Shown in pieces: positions 223 through 21,676 of a stretch of DNA of 21,676 nucleotides. Under the pieces are notes generated by a model. It was given only the letters and a program-made list of their open reading frames with translations. It was not told the origin of the DNA and did no database searches. A program made the position numbers and the translations under genes. Numbering within the stretch: position 1 is the first letter of the stretch; each line of letters opens with the position of its first letter. The DNA comes from Globomyces pollinis-pini (Eukaryota > Chytridiomycota > Chytridiomycetes > Rhizophydiales > Globomycetaceae). Location: contig MU621374.1 in assembly GCA_025399215.1 (NCBI GenBank), positions 1 to 21,676 on the forward strand. The letters run 5' to 3'.

Positions 223-2000
223 CTAATGCAAGCTCTCAGGCGCAAATGCCGTGTGTAATAGTCCAAATACTACTTCAACTTCACAACCACTACGGCTTCC
301 AATCGATGGTTGAATCAATGTAGTATCCATATTCTCCAATATATATTCGCGTTCATAGCGTTTCATTTCAAAAGTCAAGTAAAAATGAACATTCTTGAGT
401 GTTGAGTCCGGGTTGGTGTCAATTTCAGTAGGGGGTTGAAGGTAATAACCAATACCAAGTATATCTCCTTCATAGATTTCAATTTCGGGAAATGGAATAG
501 ACTCTCCGCAAAATCGTACAGTACTGTCGTGGCAGTGAAAAGCAATTGATTTATCACACATCCCAGGTAGTCGGAATGGTGGATATAACCCTGTTACAAA
601 TCCAATAGCCAAATTAGGGCTGTTATCTTCTAGCGTCACAATCCTCACTTGATAAAAGCATTCCAAGTGTTCATTACTGGAGTCAATAGAGTTGAAGGCT
701 GGAGGTGGAAGTTGATCATTTTCCAATGAATTATTATGTATTGATGTATCTTATATCTGGGAACGAGTGATGAATTGCACTGTACGTTACATTCTATTCC
801 ACCCGTAAATTTCACCATTTGCGTTCCAGATTCATCAATTTCTCCAATTTCCACCACTGGTAATACATCACCGAAACAATCAATATCAGCTATAACACGA
901 GGAGGAATCATTGAAATAGCAAGGACATGATCAATCATTGCTTGGGGGAGCAAGGCGGTGACCTTGTCCAATTCTCTTGATTCAACGGACCCTATAGGAT
1001 ATTTCTGGTAAAAAATCTCTAATCTCGACTTGAATGGTGCTTCGTGTAATACTTTCATTTCTATATCATTGTTAGATTCCTGTAACTTTGCTATTTGAAT
1101 TCCTGCAAAGAGAACAACCAAAATAAAGAAAATAAACAAAAGGCAAAATGAGAATAAAAAATTGGAACTTTTCATATTTGAACTAGCAGCGACAATAGTT
1201 GTGGTACGTGGTGGACTACTTGAAGTAGAAGTTGCAATTAAATCCAATACATCATTAGGACAAGATTCATATTTATATGATACTTGGGACCTGTCGATTA
1301 TTAAATTAGGCAGTCGGGCCTTGCTGATTATTAAATTAGTATTAGATTCGGTAACTAATTCTGTATTTAGCAACTGTATAATTGAATCCGATGTTGTTTG
1401 AACCAACAAGAACTTGTCGCTTTTTTTGGTAACCCGAAAAGAACGGATATTGTTGCGATTAACCATCACATTTGAGGAAGTTACATTAAATATACCGTCT
1501 AGTTTTGACTTGACTGATATCCTTGAAACTGTCGAAACATTTGGGCACAGAAAAGTTCCATCTAAATCTATATCATTTGTATTGTTAGTAAAGTCCAATC
1601 GCGCAGTTCCAGATTGGAGAGCCATATATAGGTAGTCATACATGTCACTGTCCACATTCAATCCTTTTTTCAATCTCTCTGTCAAATTGTTTCCATATTT
1701 CAAGTCTCCTGTTAAATTTATCGGCTGATAATCCATTGTTAAAGTTGTCATCGTTAGTTTTCCTGTAAACAATAATTTCCCAACTGAGGTAGTACTGTCA
1801 GTATTAGGAATAAATTTAGCACAATTCATGGTACGATTGTGATTGTTTAAGAGACGAATGATTGTATTTATCTCATATGGAGTTTGGTATAGGAATGAGC
1901 TAGAGTCTAGAATATGGAAAAAATTAAAACTAGTTAAAGAACAACGAATGAACTGAAGAATCAGAACTGGCAGGATCCATCGTATCATTAGGAATGCCAT
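223..2000 (-). pseudogene. SPRY-domain membrane protein, copy A (frameshifted)
   Basis: Same architecture as copy C: a hydrophobic N-terminus (MIRWILPVLILQF, start at 2000 or at the second Met, 1986-1988), a luminal/extracellular domain with many NxT/S sequons and the family motif DYQPxNLT...NLTExLKxG, a Ser/Thr-rich stalk, a TM segment (about FLFSFCLLFIFFILVVLFAG), then a cytoplasmic SPRY-type domain (AIGFVTGLYPPFRLPG). The frame is broken between about 727 and 761: copy A has 34 nt where copy C has 35, so the sequence after VPR shifts frame and the rest of the SPRY domain (223-726) lies in another frame. Codons downstream of the shift still align well with copies B and C, so the lesion is recent or is a sequencing error. 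The N-terminal part alone would give a membrane protein lacking most of the SPRY domain. Confidence 0.72.
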
Positions 2001-2197
2001 TTGTAAAGAATTAAAGTGTTGGTTTCGTGTCCATAATTGGGTTGCCTGGATCGGGTCTTTCCTAATTAGAATAGCCCGGATAAATTGAAAATCAAAACCA
2101 CTCTCTTCTTAATTCAAATCGCGTTCACAATACAGGTTTTGAAAAGAATATATTGGAACTGGCAAATCGATGACGGTTTGGTTGGTTTTTTATCCCC

Positions 2198-2280
2198 TTT
2201 AGACAATCTCAGTAGCAAATGCTGTATACAATAGTCCAAATACAACTTCACAATCACTACGCTTCCAACCGATGGATCAA
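2198..2280 (-). pseudogene. Relic of the C-terminal end of a SPRY-family gene
   Basis: About 80 bp closely match the last codons and stop of copies A-C. Shared landmarks are the run around the stop (tttagacaatctcag, compared with tttagacactctcag at copy C) and the following caaatgctgta...agtccaaatacaacttcacaatc. The relic has small deletions and the similarity ends near 2280, followed by unrelated AT-rich sequence. It is too short to encode anything. It sits between copy B (downstream side) and copy A (upstream side), so it is the tail of an additional, otherwise lost family member. Confidence 0.7.
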
Positions 2281-2620
2281 AAAGAAATACTCATAGTTTT
2301 ATATTGAAAAAAAAATCATTAACGGAAGAAGCTGATGGTTTCAGAAGCTAAGTTTTGGATTTTAGGACTCTGAAAATGTATAGAAAATGGCAAAGGCTTT
2401 ATTATTAATATATTGCTAGTTTGTCATTCTTTAATGCTAAGGTGTTTTGATAAACATCATCGATATAACTTTCAGATAAGTGCGAAGTTAAATATTTCTC
2501 TTTGAGAAATTACTCTTACAAGTAAATCGAGTAGGTAAAGTTAATCAGATCCGAACTCATTATGAATTTGATGAATTTGTAAAGTTCAGTGAAGCGATAA
2601 AAAATTCTAATTCTTTATTT
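2281..2620. other. Intergenic stretch downstream of copy B
   Basis: AT-rich, with no open frame of note on either strand. It holds a small inverted repeat (ATTTCTC-ttt-GAGAAAT, near 2493-2509) and the presumptive 3' end signals of copy B. No further family similarity was seen by eye. Confidence 0.4.
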
Positions 2621-4334
2621 CTAATGTATTCCCTCAAGAGCAAATGCCGTGTATAATGGCCCAAATACAACTTCAACTTCACAATCACTACGGCTTCCAA
2701 TCGATGGTTGAATAAGACCAATATCCATATTCTTCAACACAAATTCGCGTTCATACCGTTTCTTTTCAAATGTGAAGTAAAAGTGTACATTCTTGAGTGT
2801 TGAGTCTGGCTTCGTTTTTATTTCAGTAGGGGGTTTAAGGTAATAACCAATACCAAGTGTGTCCCCTTCATAAATTTCGATTTCTGGAAATGGAATGAGC
2901 TCTTCACAAAATCGTACAGTACTGTCTTGACAATAAAATGCAATTGATTTATCACACATCCCAGGTAGTCGGAATGGTGGATATAATCCCGTCACAAACC
3001 CAATAGCCAAATTTGGGTTGTTTTCCTCGGACGTCACAATCCTGACTTGATAGAAGCATTCTAATGGTGTATCAGCAGATTCGATGGTGTTAAAGGCTGG
3101 AGGTGGAAGTTGATCATTCTCCAATGTATCATTTGGTAATTCTGTATCTAATACTCTGGGTACGAGTGAAGAATTGCATTGTACGTTACATTCTACTCCA
3201 CCCGTAAAATTCACCATTTGCGATCCAGATTCATCATCCATTTCTCCAATTTCCACCACTGGTAATACATCACCAAAACAATCAAAATCGGCTATAACAC
3301 GAGGAGGAATCATTGAAATAGTCAAAATATGATCAATCATTGCTTGAGGGAGCAAAGCCGTGGCCTTGTCCAATTCTCTTGATTCAACAGACCCTATAGG
3401 ATATTTTACGTAAAATTTCTGTACTTTCGAATTTAATGTTACTCTATCAGCTACTCTTAATTCAGTTGCAGTCTCTGGCGGACTAGGAGGCTTTGTCCGC
3501 ATCCATTTTAAAACGCACAATAATATGAACATGACGGCTGCAACCATTACTTTCTGAACTAATATAGGTAATGGCGATTCACAAGCTTCGTATTTAAAAA
3601 CTTTTTCAGGTTCAAGCAAACCTGAACTATTTCGTTTAATCAAATTAACTTCTGATTATTGCTCTTGACGTAATTTTTAAATCCAGGTGCAATGCTGATT
3701 GAGTAGCAGAATAATTTCGTATTTGAAATAAGTCAAATTTGGCTTGGAGATACCGCTGCGCAGTAGACCACTCGGTTGTAGAGTTTGTTATCACTGTATT
3801 AATGAACATGGTTGAAGAGTTAGAAGAGTCGAAAACACCTCTTAAATTTAGATCATTGTTTGTAACGAAGAACTGTACAATTCCATTTTGAAATATCGTG
3901 TCCAAGTGCTTTGATACCTCTCTATCCGCGTTAAATCCCTTCTTCAAAATTTGTGTTAAGTTATTAACGATAATGAAATCATTTGTTAAATTTCGTGGTT
4001 CATAGCTAACTCTTAAGGTGTTTTGGACTGCCAAGTTACCAGTGAAATAGAGGGAACCAGCTCCTAAAAACCCTACTGCTGGTTGTTGTGGAATGAATTG
4101 AGCGCAATACGTATTGCGATCCGCCAAGATTTTAGAAGCTGATGTATAAATGTCAACAGGAAGGCGTAAGAATTCGTAAGAATTTTTGATTTCGAATTGA
4201 CGGCCATTAATTGGAATCGTGATTTGTCCATGGCAATTACTGAAGAGACAGAAATGATAGACCAAGACAACCAACGACCATCCAAGCATTTCTTTTCTTT
4301 TGGAAAGAATACTCGACGTAAGTTTCAGACACAA
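2621..4334 (-). pseudogene. SPRY-domain membrane protein, copy B (frameshifted before the TM segment)
   Basis: The N-terminal frame (3645-4334) encodes a signal peptide best started at the second Met (4287-4289, MLGWSLVVLVYHFCLFSNCHGQ) and a glycosylated ectodomain with the motif YEPRNLT...NNLTQILKKGFN. It ends at TAA 3645-3647. The second frame (from about 3655 down to 2621) continues with FKYEACES, a TM segment (about VMVAAVMFILLCVLKW) and a complete SPRY-type domain ending at TAG 2621-2623. The break lies at about 3645-3660 and corresponds to +1 or -2 nt relative to copy C. No GT...AG pair spans it, so splicing does not explain it. The SPRY half is nearly identical to copy C, while the ectodomain is strongly diverged. 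Either a young pseudogene or an assembly error. Confidence 0.7.
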
Positions 4335-4469
4335 AATGAAAGGAGGGACCTCATCTTAGTCTAAGTCCTGAAGTCATACTTTTTTTAAGCAATAGCAGGT
4401 TGGAAAGATTAATAAAGTGGTATCAGGTATACTGATGGAGTTATTCTCTTGTTTGGTAGCTCAAGTACA
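4335..4469. other. Upstream region of copy B
   Basis: AT-rich non-coding sequence immediately 5' of copy B on the minus strand, presumably its promoter or what remains of it. No TATA-like or other motif is convincing here. Confidence 0.3.
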
Positions 4470-4735
4470 GTTATTCAGAGCGGTTACCAAAAACAATTAG
4501 ATTCAACGATATCGTTGCCTCGGTTACTAATTTGAGAACCAAATTCAATTTTACATTTCTTTGTCCACTTTCAGTTCTTTTGTAATGTCTCTGTCAAACT
4601 GTTTCCGTATTTCAAGCCTCCAATTTTTTTCCGGTTGCCTGTTAAAGTGCTTGTCATTGTTAACTTTAAATAAAACATTTAATTTACAATAAGGTAGAAG
4701 TCACAGTAACTAAACACAATTCATTGTGTTTAGTT
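4470..4735 (-). pseudogene. Relic of the ectodomain part of a SPRY-family gene
   Basis: Degraded similarity to the ectodomain of copy A, in the same orientation. The clearest block is 4590-4618 (ctctgtcaaactgtttccgt...), matching about 1675-1702 of copy A, followed by gttaaagt...tgtcattgtta (compare 1737-1757) and a final acacaattcattg near 4713-4725 (compare 1818-1831). An earlier segment near 4478-4535 also resembles copy A around 1427-1475. The relic contains stops and indels and encodes nothing. With the C-terminal relic at 2198-2280 it brackets copy B, so the two could be the separated ends of one older gene. Confidence 0.55.
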
Positions 4736-4736
4736 A
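4707..4736. repeat. 30-bp near-perfect palindrome (14-bp arms)
   Basis: TAACTAAACACAAT, then TC, then ATTGTGTTTAGTTA: two perfectly complementary 14-bp arms around a 2-nt centre. It overlaps the end of the ectodomain relic and lies about 100 bp downstream of the stop of copy C. It could form a hairpin or cruciform. Role unknown. Confidence 0.9.
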
Positions 4737-4837
4737 TCATGGCAAATTCAAATCTACTACACAGTGTTTAATAACAATAAATTGAAACTGCCAAGTCAAT
4801 TCTGATATGCTTGATTTTTATTTCTATTTAATGTACT

Positions 4838-6529
4838 TTAGACACTCTCAGGAGCAAATGCTGTGTATAATGGTCCAAATACAACTTCAACTTCACAATC
4901 ACTACGACTTCCAATTGATGGTTGAATCATACCAATATCCATGTTTTCCAATACAAATTCGCGTTCATACCGTTTCTTTTCAAAAGTGAAGTAAAAGTGT
5001 ACATTCTTGAGTGTTGAGTCTGGCTTCGTTTTTATTTCAGTAGGGGGTTGAAGGTAATAACCAATACCAAGTATATCACCTTCATAGATTTCAATTTCTG
5101 GAAATGGAATAGACTCTCCACCAAATCGTACAGTACTGTCATGGCAGTGAAATGCAATTGACTTATCACATAGCCCAGGTAGTCGGAATGGTGGATATAA
5201 CCCTGTTACAAATCCTATAGCCAAATTAGGGTTATTCTCTTCTAATGCCACAATCCTCACTTGATAGAAGCATTCCAAGTGTTCATTACTGGAGTCGATA
5301 GAGTTGAAGGCTGGAGGAGGAAGTTGATCATTCTCCACGGTATCATTTGGTAATTCTGTATCTAATACTCTGGGAACGAGTGAAGAATTGCATTGCACAT
5401 TGCACTCTACTCCACCCGTAAATTTCACCATTTGTGATCCTAATTCATCATCTATTTCCCCAATTTCAACAACCGGCAATACATCACCGAAACAATCAAA
5501 ATCGGTGATATCACGAGGAGGAATCATTGAAATGGCAATGGGATGATCAACCATTGTTTGAGGAAGTAATGCCGTGACCTTGTCCAATTCTCTTGATTCA
5601 ACAGACCCTATAGGATATTTTACGAAAAAGTCCTCTGCTTTCAACTTTAATGTAGCTTCATCAAATACCCTCATTTCAATTCCATTCCAATTTGCTACAG
5701 GCCTTCTGCGAGTTTTTGGAGCCCATGAATTCAGAACCACCAAACCTATGACACATAACATGGCAAATCCCAAATTTGAATATAGGGAATTTTGAGATTG
5801 TCTAGTTAGTGAATCACAGGTTTCAAATTTGAAAATTTGTTCTGGTTTAAAATTGCTAAACTCTGGGGTGTCTGATGCATAGAAGTAAGCATTATTCAAA
5901 GTGATTTTGGACTTGGAAGCGATGCTAATTTGTAACCGGTCTTTGATTGCAATAGCTGAGAAATCTTGAATTTCAATCACATCTGAAGTCATATTTCTGT
6001 CTAATGAAGACCACAGTGACGAGTTTGACAGTTTCACGGTGGTTGTATTCAGGAAGAAGCGAGAATATGTTGGTAAAAATAAGGCTCCGAATAATTTCGA
6101 TTCATTGGTACTGTTTACAAACTTCAACCTTGCAGTTCCAGATTGTAAGGTGACATTCAAATACTCTGATATTTCTCTATTCAAATTGATCCCTCTCTTC
6201 AATGTCTCTGTTAAATTGGTTGCATAGTTCATATCAGCTGTTAGGTTTTGTGGTTGATAATCCATTGTTAAACTGTTGTTGACAGTAAAGCTACCCTGAA
6301 ACTCCAGTACCTCTCCAGTATTGACGAACGTTGCTCGCTCTGGTGTAAAAACAGCACAATCAATGCTTCGGCTCATCAGGATTTTACCAGCAGCTGAAAG
6401 GACACCATTTGGTAATGCTAATACTTCATTCGGGCCTTTAATTGTGAATTGACGGCCATCGACTGGAAATGATATTTGAGCATTGCAATGGCAGATGAGC
6501 AGCAGGGACGACAGGAACCATCGCAACAT
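4838..6529 (-). CDS. SPRY-domain single-pass membrane protein, copy C (intact)
   Basis: An intronless frame of 563 residues from Met at 6527-6529; the frame is open to a further Met at 6613, but the chosen start coincides with the signal peptide (MLRWFLSSLLLICHCNAQ) and with the starts of copies A and B. Order: signal peptide about 1-18; ectodomain about 19-248 with roughly nine N-glycosylation sequons and the motif DYQPQNLT; TM about 250-268 followed by a basic stop-transfer KTRRRP; a conserved juxtamembrane block (KYPIGSVESRELDK); a SPRY-type domain roughly from 355, with AIGFVTGLYPPFRLPG. That SPRY signature is closest to fungal Ssh4/Ear1 proteins, which recruit the Rsp5 ubiquitin ligase to membrane cargo in endosomes and vacuoles. 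I see no PPxY motif, so an Rsp5-adaptor role is not established. The large ectodomain is unusual for that family. Confidence 0.85.
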   Translation of the reverse strand: MLRWFLSSLLLICHCNAQISFPVDGRQFTIKGPNEVLALPNGVLSAAGKILMSRSIDCAVFTPERATFVNTGEVLEFQGSFTVNNSLTMDYQPQNLTADMNYATNLTETLKRGINLNREISEYLNVTLQSGTARLKFVNSTNESKLFGALFLPTYSRFFLNTTTVKLSNSSLWSSLDRNMTSDVIEIQDFSAIAIKDRLQISIASKSKITLNNAYFYASDTPEFSNFKPEQIFKFETCDSLTRQSQNSLYSNLGFAMLCVIGLVVLNSWAPKTRRRPVANWNGIEMRVFDEATLKLKAEDFFVKYPIGSVESRELDKVTALLPQTMVDHPIAISMIPPRDITDFDCFGDVLPVVEIGEIDDELGSQMVKFTGGVECNVQCNSSLVPRVLDTELPNDTVENDQLPPPAFNSIDSSNEHLECFYQVRIVALEENNPNLAIGFVTGLYPPFRLPGLCDKSIAFHCHDSTVRFGGESIPFPEIEIYEGDILGIGYYLQPPTEIKTKPDSTLKNVHFYFTFEKKRYEREFVLENMDIGMIQPSIGSRSDCEVEVVFGPLYTAFAPESV

Positions 6530-6613
6530 TCTATTTTTAGGCAAGTTGTAGAAACACGAATTCAGTGTCTGGGATTCACATGGTTTTGGATCAGGACCAG
6601 AACACAAACACAT

Positions 6614-16100: not shown

Positions 16101-17289
16101 ATGATCCTTGGTATTCGGGTTTAGGTGTAAATTCAAAATCAGATATATCAGATGACACAATGTCACGATTGGTGATTAAATAACCCTTGAAAATCAATCT
16201 TTATGAAAACTTACCTCTCCATCAATCATATATGAAATCATCATAATTGAATCAATCGCTGCATCTGGAAACTTTAATGGAAGTTTTGTCGTTTCAATGT
16301 CAAAAGCAAAAATAACGGGATCCGGACGCTTGACCAGATCCAATCGTGGTTCTAAAACTATGGTACCTTTGAAGAATCAATAACATATTAATATACCTTG
16401 AATGGCTTTTACATTATACCAGAGCCCAACTCTTAAATCTAATAATGAGCAATAAGATAAATTTACCTTGGTCAATGGTAACTCTGGTGTAATATGTAAT
16501 ATCGTGCTCACGTAACTCCAAAATATGATCCTGGGTATTCTGACTAGTTTTCGGTTGAACATGTCGGTCTGCAGTTCTATATCGTTAGTTTTTGGAATGA
16601 TGAAGCAATTTTAAATAGATACATGTATGATGAATTTTTGGAATCAAAATGGGTTTAATGATGCAAAGAGAAACATACTCAAATATGTGATTGAAATCAG
16701 AGTTTGATTTCTGGTTTTTCAAGTTGCGTTCAATGATAGGAAGCAAAGACTGTCGAACAGACTTTAGTTGAGTCATATTGTGAAATGTGAGTTTCAAGGC
16801 AGTACATTTAATACCGACAAGATGATTAGGCTATGGTGAGTAAAGGATATATACCAATGATAAGTCATCCTTCTGCACAATTTCTACGGAGGCTAATTTT
16901 TTCTTGTAAAGACGTCTGAGATAGTGATCAACATCCGAGACATAGGTAGCATTGGTGAGTACGTAGAAATAAGGTTGGTGGATAATAGTAGCCTTAAATG
17001 ACTGTCCATCCTCCATCAGAAAGTACAGATCGAGTGCAGCGCGTCCGTTAACCAAACCATCATCAACTAGGGATTCATGCATGTTGACTAACCAACCTAG
17101 CTTAGGATCCCCTTCAACAAAGCAAGCAAACCCCATGGTATTATCGATGGCATTTGTTTTTACCACTGATTGTAAAGTAAGTTTGTCGTCATTGCTAGTA
17201 GCATTTTCAGTAGTATCATTCGCCTTTGGTGTATTATTGGCTGCGTTGTTGGTGAAGTTCTGGTTCAATGATGCCCATTTGCCATCCAT
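10171..17289 (-). CDS. POL2: DNA polymerase epsilon catalytic subunit
   Basis: A spliced gene of 2,205 residues, the usual length (about 2,200-2,300). Introns (plus-strand coordinates): 13490-13518, 14027-14052, 14964-14988, 15084-15117, 15205-15235, 15422-15453, 15635-15659, 15722-15752, 15885-15911, 16047-16074, 16186-16214, 16367-16396, 16439-16466, 16577-16678, 16831-16854; the remaining 6,618 nt form one frame. Start is ATG 17287-17289. Exonuclease motifs: FDIETTKLP (about 269), [11 protein letters not shown] (about 357) and [13 protein letters not shown] (about 460). Polymerase motifs: [17 protein letters not shown] (about 627), [16 protein letters not shown] and [10 protein letters not shown] (about 858). 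All catalytic acids are present, so proofreading leading-strand synthesis should be functional. CASC...SSC...VCQRE at about 648-745 matches the epsilon CysX metal-cluster cysteines. The C-terminal half is one intronless exon (10171-13489) ending in two CxxC...CxxC zinc modules. The gene is convergent with the SNF2 gene, with 26 bp between stops. Acceptor 15635 could alternatively be 3 nt further 5' on the transcript. Confidence 0.96.
16577..16678 (-). other. Outlier 102-nt intron in the polymerase epsilon gene
   Basis: GTATG donor, CTAAC branch-like sequence 8 nt before the terminal AG. No internal AG exists, so it cannot be split into two of the usual 24-37 nt units, and removing the whole 102 nt is needed to keep frame (GA|A, giving NHIFE-TADRHVQ). 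All other introns in this gene are 24-34 nt. Confidence 0.75.
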
Positions 17290-17963: not shown

Positions 17964-20208
17964 ATGACCGAAATAAGTAGACCCACAAGGTCTTTTGCAC
18001 ACCATACCCATCTTATCCATCTTTTGAAACAAGATAAAATAGATTTGGCTAATTTGCCAAATGATTTGAAGGTTATGATAATGGAACAGTCTATTGCACG
18101 TCTTCAGCATTATGATCCGCTCAAGGTCATTACCCGTTCAGATCATAAATACTCTGTCTTGGATGCCAAGCAAATTACAGCGCTAAAAAAGAAACGGCTA
18201 GAGGTATTCTTGCTACTTTATGTTTTGTCTTTCATTAACTTCTACATTCTCCTATACAGTTCGACTTTTTCTTTTTCCAGTTTAATCTTACCATTCATTA
18301 TGTTCTTTACTCGTTCAGTACATAAAGACGCTCTCATAAAACTTCCAACATTGTCTCTAACCAGTTACAGGTAAGAGTTCATTCAGATTAACAATTCTAA
18401 AGGTATCGGTTATAATAATCTAATCAAAAGAGTATCTACAATCGCGGGTTTTATTCCGATCCTAAAGAATTGTACAAACCATTAGGTATGTCACATAACT
18501 CTTATACCTAGGGGACCCCGCTTTGGACACAGAAACGCTGCTCTATGATACCCTACAGATTGATACTAAAGGATTAAAGTAATTAAAATGTTATTGACAT
18601 TGGTGTTCAGTAAAAACAATAAATTTGAGTCTGAAGCTCAAAAAGATGCTACACAACAGAAGAAACAGCAAGCTAAAATGAAAATGAAATTTAGAGGTAT
18701 AAAAGTAGCAATAATTGAATTATAGGTGTGGTCTTAAACATTTAATTCTATAGGTATAATCGAACTGCATTAACTTTCAGGTATCGGTTACTTTATAACT
18801 CTATTCAATAGGTACGTTAAATTTTATTGATCTTAGGTAATTGAATAAATATTAATATGTTAGAGGTTCCAAAACGACATACTAATGGCTTCAAATACAT
18901 CAAAGAAAAACTGGCAAAATCCAACAATCGAATAGGATCTGTGAAGGTAAATCAGAAATAATTTAGCTCTAGTTTGGTGTACCGTTCACAGATGTTTGTG
19001 AATTAGACAATCGGGACCACACTTATGACACAACTGATCAACCAAAAAACGAAAACCGAAACAGTTTTTAAATTTATCTAATATTTAGTTGATTGGAATA
19101 ATTTGGAAATAGATGAGGATCGGAAGACATTTTTTCTAAACATCTACAATAAATACCTTACAGCACAAAAAGGTATAAATTCTTAATAATGACCACTTTC
19201 ACAGAACCAGAAGATAAGCCAAAAGCTCTTAAAACACCTCAATCAAAAAGAAATGCCAAATCACCTATTTTGTAACGACCATTCCAAATAACGTAAAGGC
19301 AAGATCCAGGAACAATCAAACTGAGTAGAAAACAAATCGAAACTGCCTTGCAAATAAAACGCGAAGATCATACTGCTGATACCACCGATCGTGTAAGCTA
19401 TGTTCTATTCACCCTTAGTTTTTTACCACCAGGGACAATTTTTATGAACAGCGAACCAGATTAAATTACCGACTTGCTGAAGATTTAGATAGGTATCAAC
19501 AAATTTAGATGCTTCTTATCAATCTAGGTATTGTTCTGGCAATCATTGATGTTAGGTTTCCTCTTCTAAAAAGTTAATTAATTTTAGGTATATTCTAAAG
19601 CCATAAATCAAAAAATAGATTGGATTTTGAAAGAAAAATAAACTTCCAGCGTAAAGTGAGGGTATTTGAATTATCGAAGGCATGCAAATTATTCCTAACA
19701 ATAAGAAAGGACAATGTATTGATGATTTAACCACTATGAGATGCAAAGCAAATGAAGAAAGAAGAAATAATAGAAAACATTTGATCGATTCTCATCCGTG
19801 GTATAATGAACTAATCAACAAAGTCGTGGTGTTGAATGGTGTACAACGTGAAGTCACACCACATGAATCGGTCATTTTAGAGCATCTCAGAGGGTAAATC
19901 AATGATGCTAATTATTATAGGTATCAATTAACACCTATTTAATCGATAGGTTAATTGAAGATCAAGTTCGTTTCACAAAACATACATTCTTGCATCTTAT
20001 TCGGTTATTACCCACACGAGATTTTCTCAAAGATGAAGTGCAACGTATCATTCGTTTTGTTAAATCTCATGAAACTATTACTGAGCGTGACTACCTCGAA
20101 ATCGTTGAACAAGCAGGACATAGTATGCGAAATTTTTTATTTATACTTTGTAGGTGTTACTTTTTGAGTTGTACCTTTTCAATAATAAACTTAGAATGCG
20201 ATTATTGA
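17964..20208 (+). CDS. Unrecognised 457-residue protein, 14 exons, with chained introns
   Basis: Exons: 17964-18203, 18431-18485, 18512-18578, 18611-18696, 18864-18946, 18973-19063, 19089-19172, 19205-19271, 19299-19392, 19419-19492, 19619-19650, 19680-19893, 19950-20122, 20195-20208. They sum to 1,374 nt in one frame, ending at TGA 20206-20208. The protein is hydrophilic and charged, with Lys/Gln-rich stretches (QKKQQAKMKMKF), a block FGVPFTDVCELDNRDHTYDTTD, a probable helix LNYRLAEDLDR, and a conserved-looking C-terminal segment (LIEDQVRF, FLHLIRLLPTRDFLKDEV). I do not recognise a family; no TM segment or signal peptide. The first 80 residues, the spliced central exons and 19680-20122 are convincingly coding. 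Two uncertainties: 18204-18430 is treated as wholly intronic, which joins CTA GAG to AGT ATC in frame, and the last exon could be wrong because reading through 20123-20153 is also open. It is divergent from the polymerase epsilon gene. Confidence 0.72.
18204..18430 (+). other. Long intronic segment ending in two abutting intron units
   Basis: 227 nt from GTATT (18204) to AAAAG (18430). The last part consists of two head-to-tail units, 18371-18402 (32 nt) and 18403-18430 (28 nt), the second with an in-frame stop. The first 167 nt (18204-18370) contain several AG sites. A frame is open through them, giving a very hydrophobic stretch unlike the rest of the protein, but no exon model within it preserved the reading frame convincingly. 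Confidence 0.5.
18697..18863 (+). other. Chain of six abutting tiny introns (zero-length exons)
   Basis: Six units lie end to end: 18697-18725 (29), 18726-18753 (28), 18754-18780 (27), 18781-18811 (31), 18812-18836 (25), 18837-18863 (27). Each begins GTA or GTG, ends TAG or CAG, and is followed at once by the GT of the next. Their lengths match the isolated introns of this genome. The flanking exons read AGA G|AG GTT CCA AAA only if all 167 nt are removed (167 is not a multiple of three). Apart from splice-like ends the units share little sequence. Confidence 0.82.
19493..19618 (+). other. Chain of four abutting tiny introns
   Basis: Units 19493-19527 (35), 19528-19555 (28), 19556-19587 (32) and 19588-19618 (31), each AG directly followed by GT. 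The exons join as GAT AG|A TTG GAT TTT. The block is 126 nt, a multiple of three, but contains stops, so retention would truncate the protein. Confidence 0.78.
19894..19949 (+). other. Pair of abutting tiny introns
   Basis: Units 19894-19920 (27) and 19921-19949 (29). The flanking exons join as AGA GG|G TTA ATT GAA GAT, restoring a long open frame on both sides. Confidence 0.8.
20123..20194 (+). other. Probable pair of abutting introns near the 3' end
   Basis: Units 20123-20153 (31) and 20154-20194 (41). Joining gives ...GGA CAT A|AA TGC GAT TAT TGA. The first unit has no stop in the incoming frame, so a single-intron alternative (only 20154-20194 removed) is also possible and would change the C-terminus. 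Confidence 0.5.
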
Positions 20209-21113: not shown

Positions 21114-21676
21114 ATGTTCATATCACATCTTCTTGTTGCTACTTTATCTATTGCTGTATATGCCGAAGAAGCTGCTGCTCCAGCCCCTGCTGCTGAAGGA
21201 GCTGCTCCTGCTCCAGCCGCTGAAGGTGCTCCTGCCCCAGCCGGTGGTGCTCCTGCTGCTGGTGGTGCTCCTGCAACGCGCCCAGAAAGTACCAGTATTT
21301 GTGACTTCTACACTCAAGCTGTATTTGGAGAAAATAACGAAGCAAATCAACTTAAATTACTCACCACTGTTGTCAATCGTGTGGTTGGTGGTAACTTTAC
21401 CGCTACTCCAGATGGTGTTCCAGTCACTGGTATTTTGGCTAAAACCAACTTCAACGGTGAAGCGATTGATCTTCTCCCAATTTTCACTGGTCAAGCTGGT
21501 CCTGTAATCAATGAAGGTGGGACCCCAACAGCTGTAAATTTCTTGGATGGTGGTGGTGCTGAACCACTTAAAGAAGGAAAAGCTTCAAATAACCCTGCTT
21601 CTAGACAAGAATCTTTACTAAACCATTTGTATCAATTGTTTGGATCACTTCTCAAATGTGGAGCTCAAGGAGGTCA
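21114..21676 (+). CDS. Secreted Ala/Pro-rich protein (5' part, runs off window)
   Basis: ATG 21114 opens a frame that continues to the window edge (187 complete codons). A signal peptide (MFISHLLVATLSIAVYA) is followed by a low-complexity linker built from repeated APAPAAEGA / APAGGAP units (about residues 21-55), then a globular part starting RPESTSICDFYTQAVFG that is rich in Gly, Asn and Thr, with at least two cysteines (SICDF, LLKCGA). Codons are mostly GCT, GGT, CCA, AAC and TTC, clearly less AT-biased than the neighbours, which together with the TATA box suggests strong expression. No intron is apparent in the visible part. The globular domain seems related to small secreted proteins of early-diverging fungi, but I cannot name a family. 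Likely extracellular or cell-wall. Confidence 0.82.
   Translation, partial: MFISHLLVATLSIAVYAEEAAAPAPAAEGAAPAPAAEGAPAPAGGAPAAGGAPATRPESTSICDFYTQAVFGENNEANQLKLLTTVVNRVVGGNFTATPDGVPVTGILAKTNFNGEAIDLLPIFTGQAGPVINEGGTPTAVNFLDGGGAEPLKEGKASNNPASRQESLLNHLYQLFGSLLKCGAQGG

Follow-up and report, generated by a model that had tools for sequence, protein, structure and literature searches.

Abutting mini-introns without exons between them in the chytrid Globomyces pollinis-pini: a six-unit chain probably spliced one unit at a time

Introduction

Recursive splicing at ratchet points, described in Drosophila and mammals, removes large introns consecutively from the 5′ end; in the same account the consensus is (y)nncag|gtaagt, and the term zero-length exon is used (PMC2773006). 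A study of human lariats reports recursive splicing over a wider range of intron sizes (PMC10156609). In ascomycete fungi, stwintrons are removed by consecutive U2 splicing reactions, and in Hypoxylon the intermediates have been confirmed by RNA reads (PMC9024468). Introns can also be gained by multiplication. In Cryptococcus this has occurred through expansion of a DNA tandem repeat of about 107 nt that includes exon ends (PMC2395259), and introner-like elements are introns that multiply (PMC8469720).

Here we analyze a locus in the chytrid Globomyces pollinis-pini (order Rhizophydiales), for which an 18.5-Mb assembly of 459 contigs is available. The window, by which we mean the whole stretch of 21,676 nt that was analyzed, is contig C285 of that assembly. 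It carries a gene with a gap of 167 nt that we read, with a probability of about three in four on the sequence evidence, as six complete spliceosomal mini-introns of ~28 nt with zero-length exons between them, removed one by one.

Results

A chain of six intron-size units

A first-pass annotation of the window had placed six tiny introns head to tail between two exons, and on re-reading its coordinates, its five AG|GT junctions and its six unit lengths are all correct. When the AGGT sites are listed, the 167 nt from 18697 to 18863 are found to consist of six abutting GT...AG units with 0 nt between them. The first unit starts at 18697, internal AGGT junctions follow at 18726, 18754, 18781, 18812 and 18837, and the last unit closes with TTAG at 18863. 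The host gene and the units are:

17964..20167, forward strand: host gene, hypothetical protein BC833DRAFT_217378 (P0049, 458 aa), from spliced alignment with the stop codon taken from the sequence
18697..18725, forward strand: chain unit 1, 29 nt, GTA...TAG
18726..18753, forward strand: chain unit 2, 28 nt, GTG...TAG
18754..18780, forward strand: chain unit 3, 27 nt, GTA...CAG
18781..18811, forward strand: chain unit 4, 31 nt, GTA...TAG
18812..18836, forward strand: chain unit 5, 25 nt, GTA...TAG
18837..18863, forward strand: chain unit 6, 27 nt, GTA...TAG

All six units thus have the GTA or GTG start (five and one, respectively) and the TAG or CAG end (five and one) that had been claimed for them.

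P0049 fits the window at every residue, with 13 gaps and, when no gap is subdivided, 14 exons. The alignment allows GT and GC donors; it minimizes the number of gaps, and cannot itself separate one intron from six. P0049 was used as an annotated protein sequence alone. The alignment places one gap exactly at 18697-18863, between FR and EVPKRHTNG (KFR|EVPK in P0049), bearing out the earlier statement that the flanking exons are in frame. This junction is ungapped in all eight aligned chytrid proteins, comprising P0049 and seven others (8 of 14 matches to the predicted focal product). There are stops in the chain if it is translated straight through, and four of the six unit lengths are not multiples of three. 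The annotated P0049 and its relatives support the view that the 167 nt would be absent as a whole from the mature product.

A random model with a similar spacing of AG|GT by chance had been named as grounds for refuting the chain. When the gap was resampled 5,000 times under a first-order Markov model, not one resample could be divided into GT...AG units of 21-38 nt, and the genome-wide ladder counts (214 against 27 and 6) and the shuffled gap interiors, both given below, agree with this.

Other gaps in the host gene

Nine of the 13 gaps in P0049 are 25-32 nt long and ladder-free, as expected from the claim that the units match single introns elsewhere in the window. The other four, of 227, 167, 126 and 56 nt, all contain AG|GT junctions, and three of these were not part of the chain described in the first-pass annotation. 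The gaps of 167, 126 and 56 nt split completely into units of intron size. Besides the focal chain, the gaps, all on the forward strand, are:

18204..18430, forward strand: mixed gap, 227 nt, of which 167 nt ladder-free and then units of 32 and 28 nt
19493..19618, forward strand: second full chain, 35+28+32+31 = 126 nt, ends fixed by P0049
19894..19949, forward strand: two-unit chain, 27+29 = 56 nt
18486..18511, forward strand: plain single intron, 26 nt
18579-18610, 18947-18972, 19064-19088 and 19173-19204, forward strand: further single introns
19272-19298, 19393-19418 and 20123-20153, forward strand: further single introns
19680-19705, forward strand: GC-AG intron, 26 nt, fixed by P0049

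The 126-nt gap was divisible in the same manner in 5 of 5,000 resamples. The mixed gap could contain nested introns, or represent a long intron to which two units were added.

A near-identical orthologue from Globomyces sp. JEL0801 (P0050) was compared as protein. The deposited sequence lacks three stretches that are present in P0049, and these adjoin chains or short introns of the gene encoding P0049; their absence is perhaps an annotation artefact.

Two further features of the window are:

223-6613, reverse strand: several reading frames in tandem, 167-591 aa long, which by eye are evidently related and resemble one another towards the C terminus; two of these submitted to Pfam matched no family
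21114-21676, forward strand: beginning of an Ala/Pro-rich protein that looks secreted and contains repeats of 24-27 nt; the contig ends within it

Ladders and chains across the genome

How general are such chains in this genome? We searched for three-junction ladders with a pattern that uses no gene finder, i.e. AGGTR, 19-28 free bases, YAGGTR, 19-28 free bases and YAGGTR, corresponding to a spacing of 24-33 nt. There are 214 genome-wide, against 27 for the reversed pattern. A wider ladder (39-48 free bases, spacing 44-53 nt) gives just 6, two of them from the array on contig C68, against 38 reversed, and because of this last disparity the reversed pattern is an imperfect baseline; it is probably enriched for coding words. 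One hundred of the 214 ladder places were listed, representing 69 separate spots, among which some will be chance. The one-unit pattern occurs 1,335 times against 1,500 in the control, so that single AG|GT spacings are uninformative and the ladders alone carry information. The spectrum of AGGT spacings in 173 kb of contig ends is noisy and has no peak over the reversed control, with 18 pairs in the 25-34 nt bins against 23 reversed and 5.3 shuffled.

Ten loci (L022-L031) were fetched for their long ladders, and each resolves into one or two chains, 4-12 units long, within a predicted gene, though L023 is ambiguous:

L030 (contig C102, about 3679-4043): 12 units, MARK-like kinase, inside the DFG motif
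L022: 10 units, PhyH gene
L026: 9 units, GDSL gene
L024: 7 units, MCM gene
L025: 7 units
L023 (C68:15902-16041): 6 units, SDR gene; possibly a coding repeat
L027: 5 units, SAMHD1-like gene
L028: 5 units
L029: 4 units
L031: 4 and 4 units, WD40 gene

The twelve units of L030 form the longest chain met in the genome, exceeding the six of the focal chain. Pfam families were matched by seven of nine proteins (a set without L025 and L029), the focal protein and that of L028 having no match. In four genes the residues flanking a chain are contiguous in comparison with solved relatives: VKIT|DFGLSN in the kinase, YY|VY in the SAMHD1-like protein, IFK|QP in the PhyH protein (aligned with PHYHD1), and CIQ|IWD at one of the four-unit chains of the WD40 protein, where the repeat alignment is weak. 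Of three records of chytrid relatives of the kinase, one is contiguous at the junction and two have large gaps around the site.

L023 is possibly a coding hydrophobic repeat, because its units are 27 nt long and units 2-6 have no in-frame stop. It was kept in the 73-unit splice-site set, in the arrays used for junction changes and as two of the 153 motif units (all below), and excluded from the recount with the retrained gene finder. The L023 array, on contig C68, lies ahead of the SDR gene (L023 1378-1539), and by eye it reads as GILFVVLML-like repeats.

Lengths of introns, units and gaps

A gene finder given a flat length prior at the start converged by itself on an intron mode of 27 nt. It over-called, however: in pol epsilon, sequence that is coding by eye was marked as a chain of two units and as several single introns. 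For this reason the counts were repeated with a retrained gene finder. The false chain, at 16367-16419 on the reverse strand of the window, has a first 'unit' that encodes WYNVKAIQ (by eye), and was dropped after retraining. With the retrained version, 13 gene regions yielded 103 single introns of 20-40 nt, counted on coding strands only, which measure 27.9 ± 3.1 nt, and 68 units in ten chains besides the focal one, L023 excluded, have a mean of 28.9 nt. The two gene finders agree on chains of at least four units in the focal gene and in eight of the ten fetched loci. Compared with the first, the retrained version has one more unit in L022, eleven in all, which conflicts with the alignment to PHYHD1; it begins the chain of L025 10 nt earlier, and loses one two-unit chain in each of L027 and L030.

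In the same 13 gene regions there are nine ladder-free single gaps of 43-189 nt, among them a 102-nt gap in pol epsilon. Since such gaps exist, the spliceosome of this organism may be able to take out 100-170 nt in one step, though part of them may be gene-finder errors.

In a sample drawn without regard to chains, comprising the 58 genes predicted in the first 10 kb of 20 contigs, 430 gaps were called. Of these 384 are no longer than 45 nt, a single one falls in the 45-49 nt bin and 21 lie at 50-64 nt; 28 gaps above 45 nt are ladder-free. Among 25 gaps of 46-72 nt, 16 have an AG|GT flanked on both sides by 20-40 nt; in 1,000 shuffles of the interiors this placement was found in 1.3 of the 25 gaps on average and in 6 at most. 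Zero-length exons were called 19 times, and exons of 1, 2, 3, 4 and 5 nt on 1, 3, 0, 1 and 1 occasions, respectively. The length and donor models of the gene finder somewhat favour such calls, and the figures from the sample are therefore weaker than the pattern counts.

Intron-like signals within the units

The third base and the acceptor base of 73 chain units agree with those of single introns, and within chains the outer and inner splice sites are of similar quality. The single introns used here and in the comparison with 153 units also included calls on both strands of L022-L031; a recount on coding strands gave the same picture.

We take the sequence YTRAY to be the branch site here, an assumption from the general fungal consensus. 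With its A at 6-14 nt from the 3′ end, a distance window chosen post hoc after inspection of the positions, it is found in 74 of 153 non-redundant units from the pattern listing compared with 25.4 after shuffling. The pattern search made no use of this motif, which is scarce in the 5′ half of the units (16/153). In the calls of the retrained gene finder it is present in 23 of 48 internal chain units (7.6 shuffled) and in 43 of 103 single introns (16.4 shuffled), and it occurs in four of the six focal units, against 1.2 shuffled, a count of four being reached in 8 of 500 shuffles. About half of the chain units are without it. Taken together, the units look like introns rather than slices of a single intron.

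In three tandem arrays one of 18 sites at +3 and –3 has changed, compared with 34 of 196 interior positions, numbers too few to speak of selection on the junctions. Of 89 units from 15 chains, 81 would shift the frame or introduce a stop if retained singly; the other eight are 3n in length and stop-free, and five of these belong to L023. By the same measure the count for predicted single introns on L022-L031 is 55 of 64; chain units and single introns are thus alike, and the measure does not separate the hypotheses. RED is needed for the splicing of short introns, according to the title of one report (PMC6692369). The RED_N domain (PF07808) was undetected in this genome and equally in every control genome, so that its absence says nothing. 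The DBR1 domain was found in the genome, with no signal from any control genome.

Origin of the chains

Neighbouring units are clear copies of each other in L022, L029 and part of L030, with z up to 9.4, and also in the ambiguous L023. Some chains thus look like products of local tandem copying. Neighbouring units are not recognizable as copies in the focal chain or in L024, L026, L027 and L028, and z for adjacent units in the focal chain is –0.3 to 1.6. A copying origin can only be conjectured for the focal chain, because its units show no similarity. One unit from the array on contig C12 and one from that on C68 were searched genome-wide with up to three mismatches and gave two and three matches, all within their own array. 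Since these units are unmatched elsewhere, the two arrays look local.

Exact copying of one intron could proceed by slippage or unequal exchange at the AGGT repeat, or by reverse splicing into a junction. The downstream exon starts with GT in 6 of 11 fetched chains, compared with 82 of 744 single introns called by the first gene finder; in the focal gene this is so for one of four. Such exons fit a start driven by the repeat, in a small sample.

Discussion

A chain removed unit by unit would work as follows. The units carry a donor and an acceptor each, with a branch-site-like motif in four of the six, and could be recognized by a spliceosome acting by intron definition that excises them singly. 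Every excision would join the upstream YAG to the downstream GT, keeping the ends of the remaining units intact. As YAG|GT is recreated at each join, the next unit would be ready and the order of removal immaterial. Neighbouring units share one AG|GT, which we infer makes their simultaneous handling unlikely. The excision of each individual unit, and its order, are inferred from the statistics of splice and branch sites and from recurrence in the genome. It seems likely, in addition, that chains of up to twelve units are serially spliced at many loci and that they lengthen locally as introns are copied as exact units, with stages from near-identical to fully diverged.

The same gap might instead be excised in a single step, the donor at 18697 pairing with the acceptor at 18863 and the inner sites being unused relics of multiplied introns. 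Ladder-free gaps of at least 100 nt seem to exist, and the outer sites match the inner ones in quality, as such an excision would have it. Yet the focal units share no recognizable similarity while all five of their internal junctions are intact, branch-like motifs are equally common in internal chain units and in single introns, and neither the trough at 45-49 nt nor the ladders in the 46-72 nt gaps would be expected if inner sites were free to decay. The argument from decay is tempered in two ways: detection by junctions under-counts decayed chains, and a chain built from inserted unrelated introns would have had diverged units from the outset. On balance we consider one-step excision of the focal gap unlikely. 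A reading that overlaps with our own is that units leave singly, in pairs or in blocks, any donor pairing with any downstream acceptor. The sites are alike in quality and every pairing gives a clean junction, but the narrow length range of single introns favours pairing of the nearest sites; we hold such mixed removal to be possible, though short of probable.

Two further explanations are chance or artefact and a coding minisatellite. At least one chain of two units, that in pol epsilon, was an invention of the first gene finder, and one-unit spacings are no more frequent than in the reversed control, so AG|GT might have fallen by chance in an AT-rich 167-nt intron or been produced by the gene finder. 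The excess of ladders was obtained without any gene finder, and for the focal ladder the resampling and the annotated protein, which fixes the outer ends, refute both chance and artefact; we regard them as very improbable. A coding minisatellite mistaken for introns is possible at L023. At the focal chain it is refuted by unit lengths, by the stops on reading through and by the missing stretch in the protein, and its probability is negligible. Removal of the six units one by one remains our preferred reading.

If each unit is spliced, successive cycles of the spliceosome take place on one short stretch, with sites ~28 nt apart and shared junctions. This would test the minimum size and the crowding of introns, and whether a length ceiling imposed by intron definition forces long gaps to consist of short units. 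The chains also offer a natural series for the exact multiplication of introns without exon material. Finally, gene models may fail at chains, and P0050 may serve as an example.

Comparison with known systems

In the open-licence PMC literature covered, and in those portions of it that were accessible, we found no description of comparable chains in which introns abut. The resemblances to described systems are each partial. The stwintron is a complex intervening sequence with consecutive splicing, as is proposed for the chytrid chains. Its internal intron interrupts the donor, branch site or acceptor of the outer one and must leave first, whereas the units of a chain abut and are uninterrupted. 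The focal chain is therefore not a stwintron, since it consists of six complete GT...AG units with none nested in another. In a stwintron of Lipomyces starkeyi the donor elements abut, but according to that source the units are still nested (PMC7138796).

As in Cryptococcus, extra introns would come from the expansion of a repeat, but the copied unit here is the intron alone. In contrast to introner-like elements, the two units tested, from C12 and from the ambiguous array on C68, have no dispersed near-identical copies. In size the focal units, at 25-31 nt, fall within the range of ultra-short introns (roughly 20-35 nt, GT-AG, like the single introns of this genome), and resemble those of Paramecium and Nyctotherus, at ~25 bp (PMC5014332). 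Chains lacking exons are not described for ultra-short introns in the accessible portions of two reports (PMC5014332, PMC12862383).

The chains would work like recursive splicing, which the first-pass annotation had proposed. Its core stands on sequence grounds, in that the introns abut with zero-length-exon junctions; a strict 5′-to-3′ order is unnecessary, as each unit is complete. The host gap of 167 nt falls outside the large host introns of recursive splicing as first described, and the steps of ~28 nt, several in succession and at many loci, in an order that need not matter, set the chains further apart. What the two have in common is the combined acceptor-donor AG|GT. It is present at five of five internal junctions of the focal chain as a fusion of the ratchet type, and its rebuilding after each step follows from the sequence.
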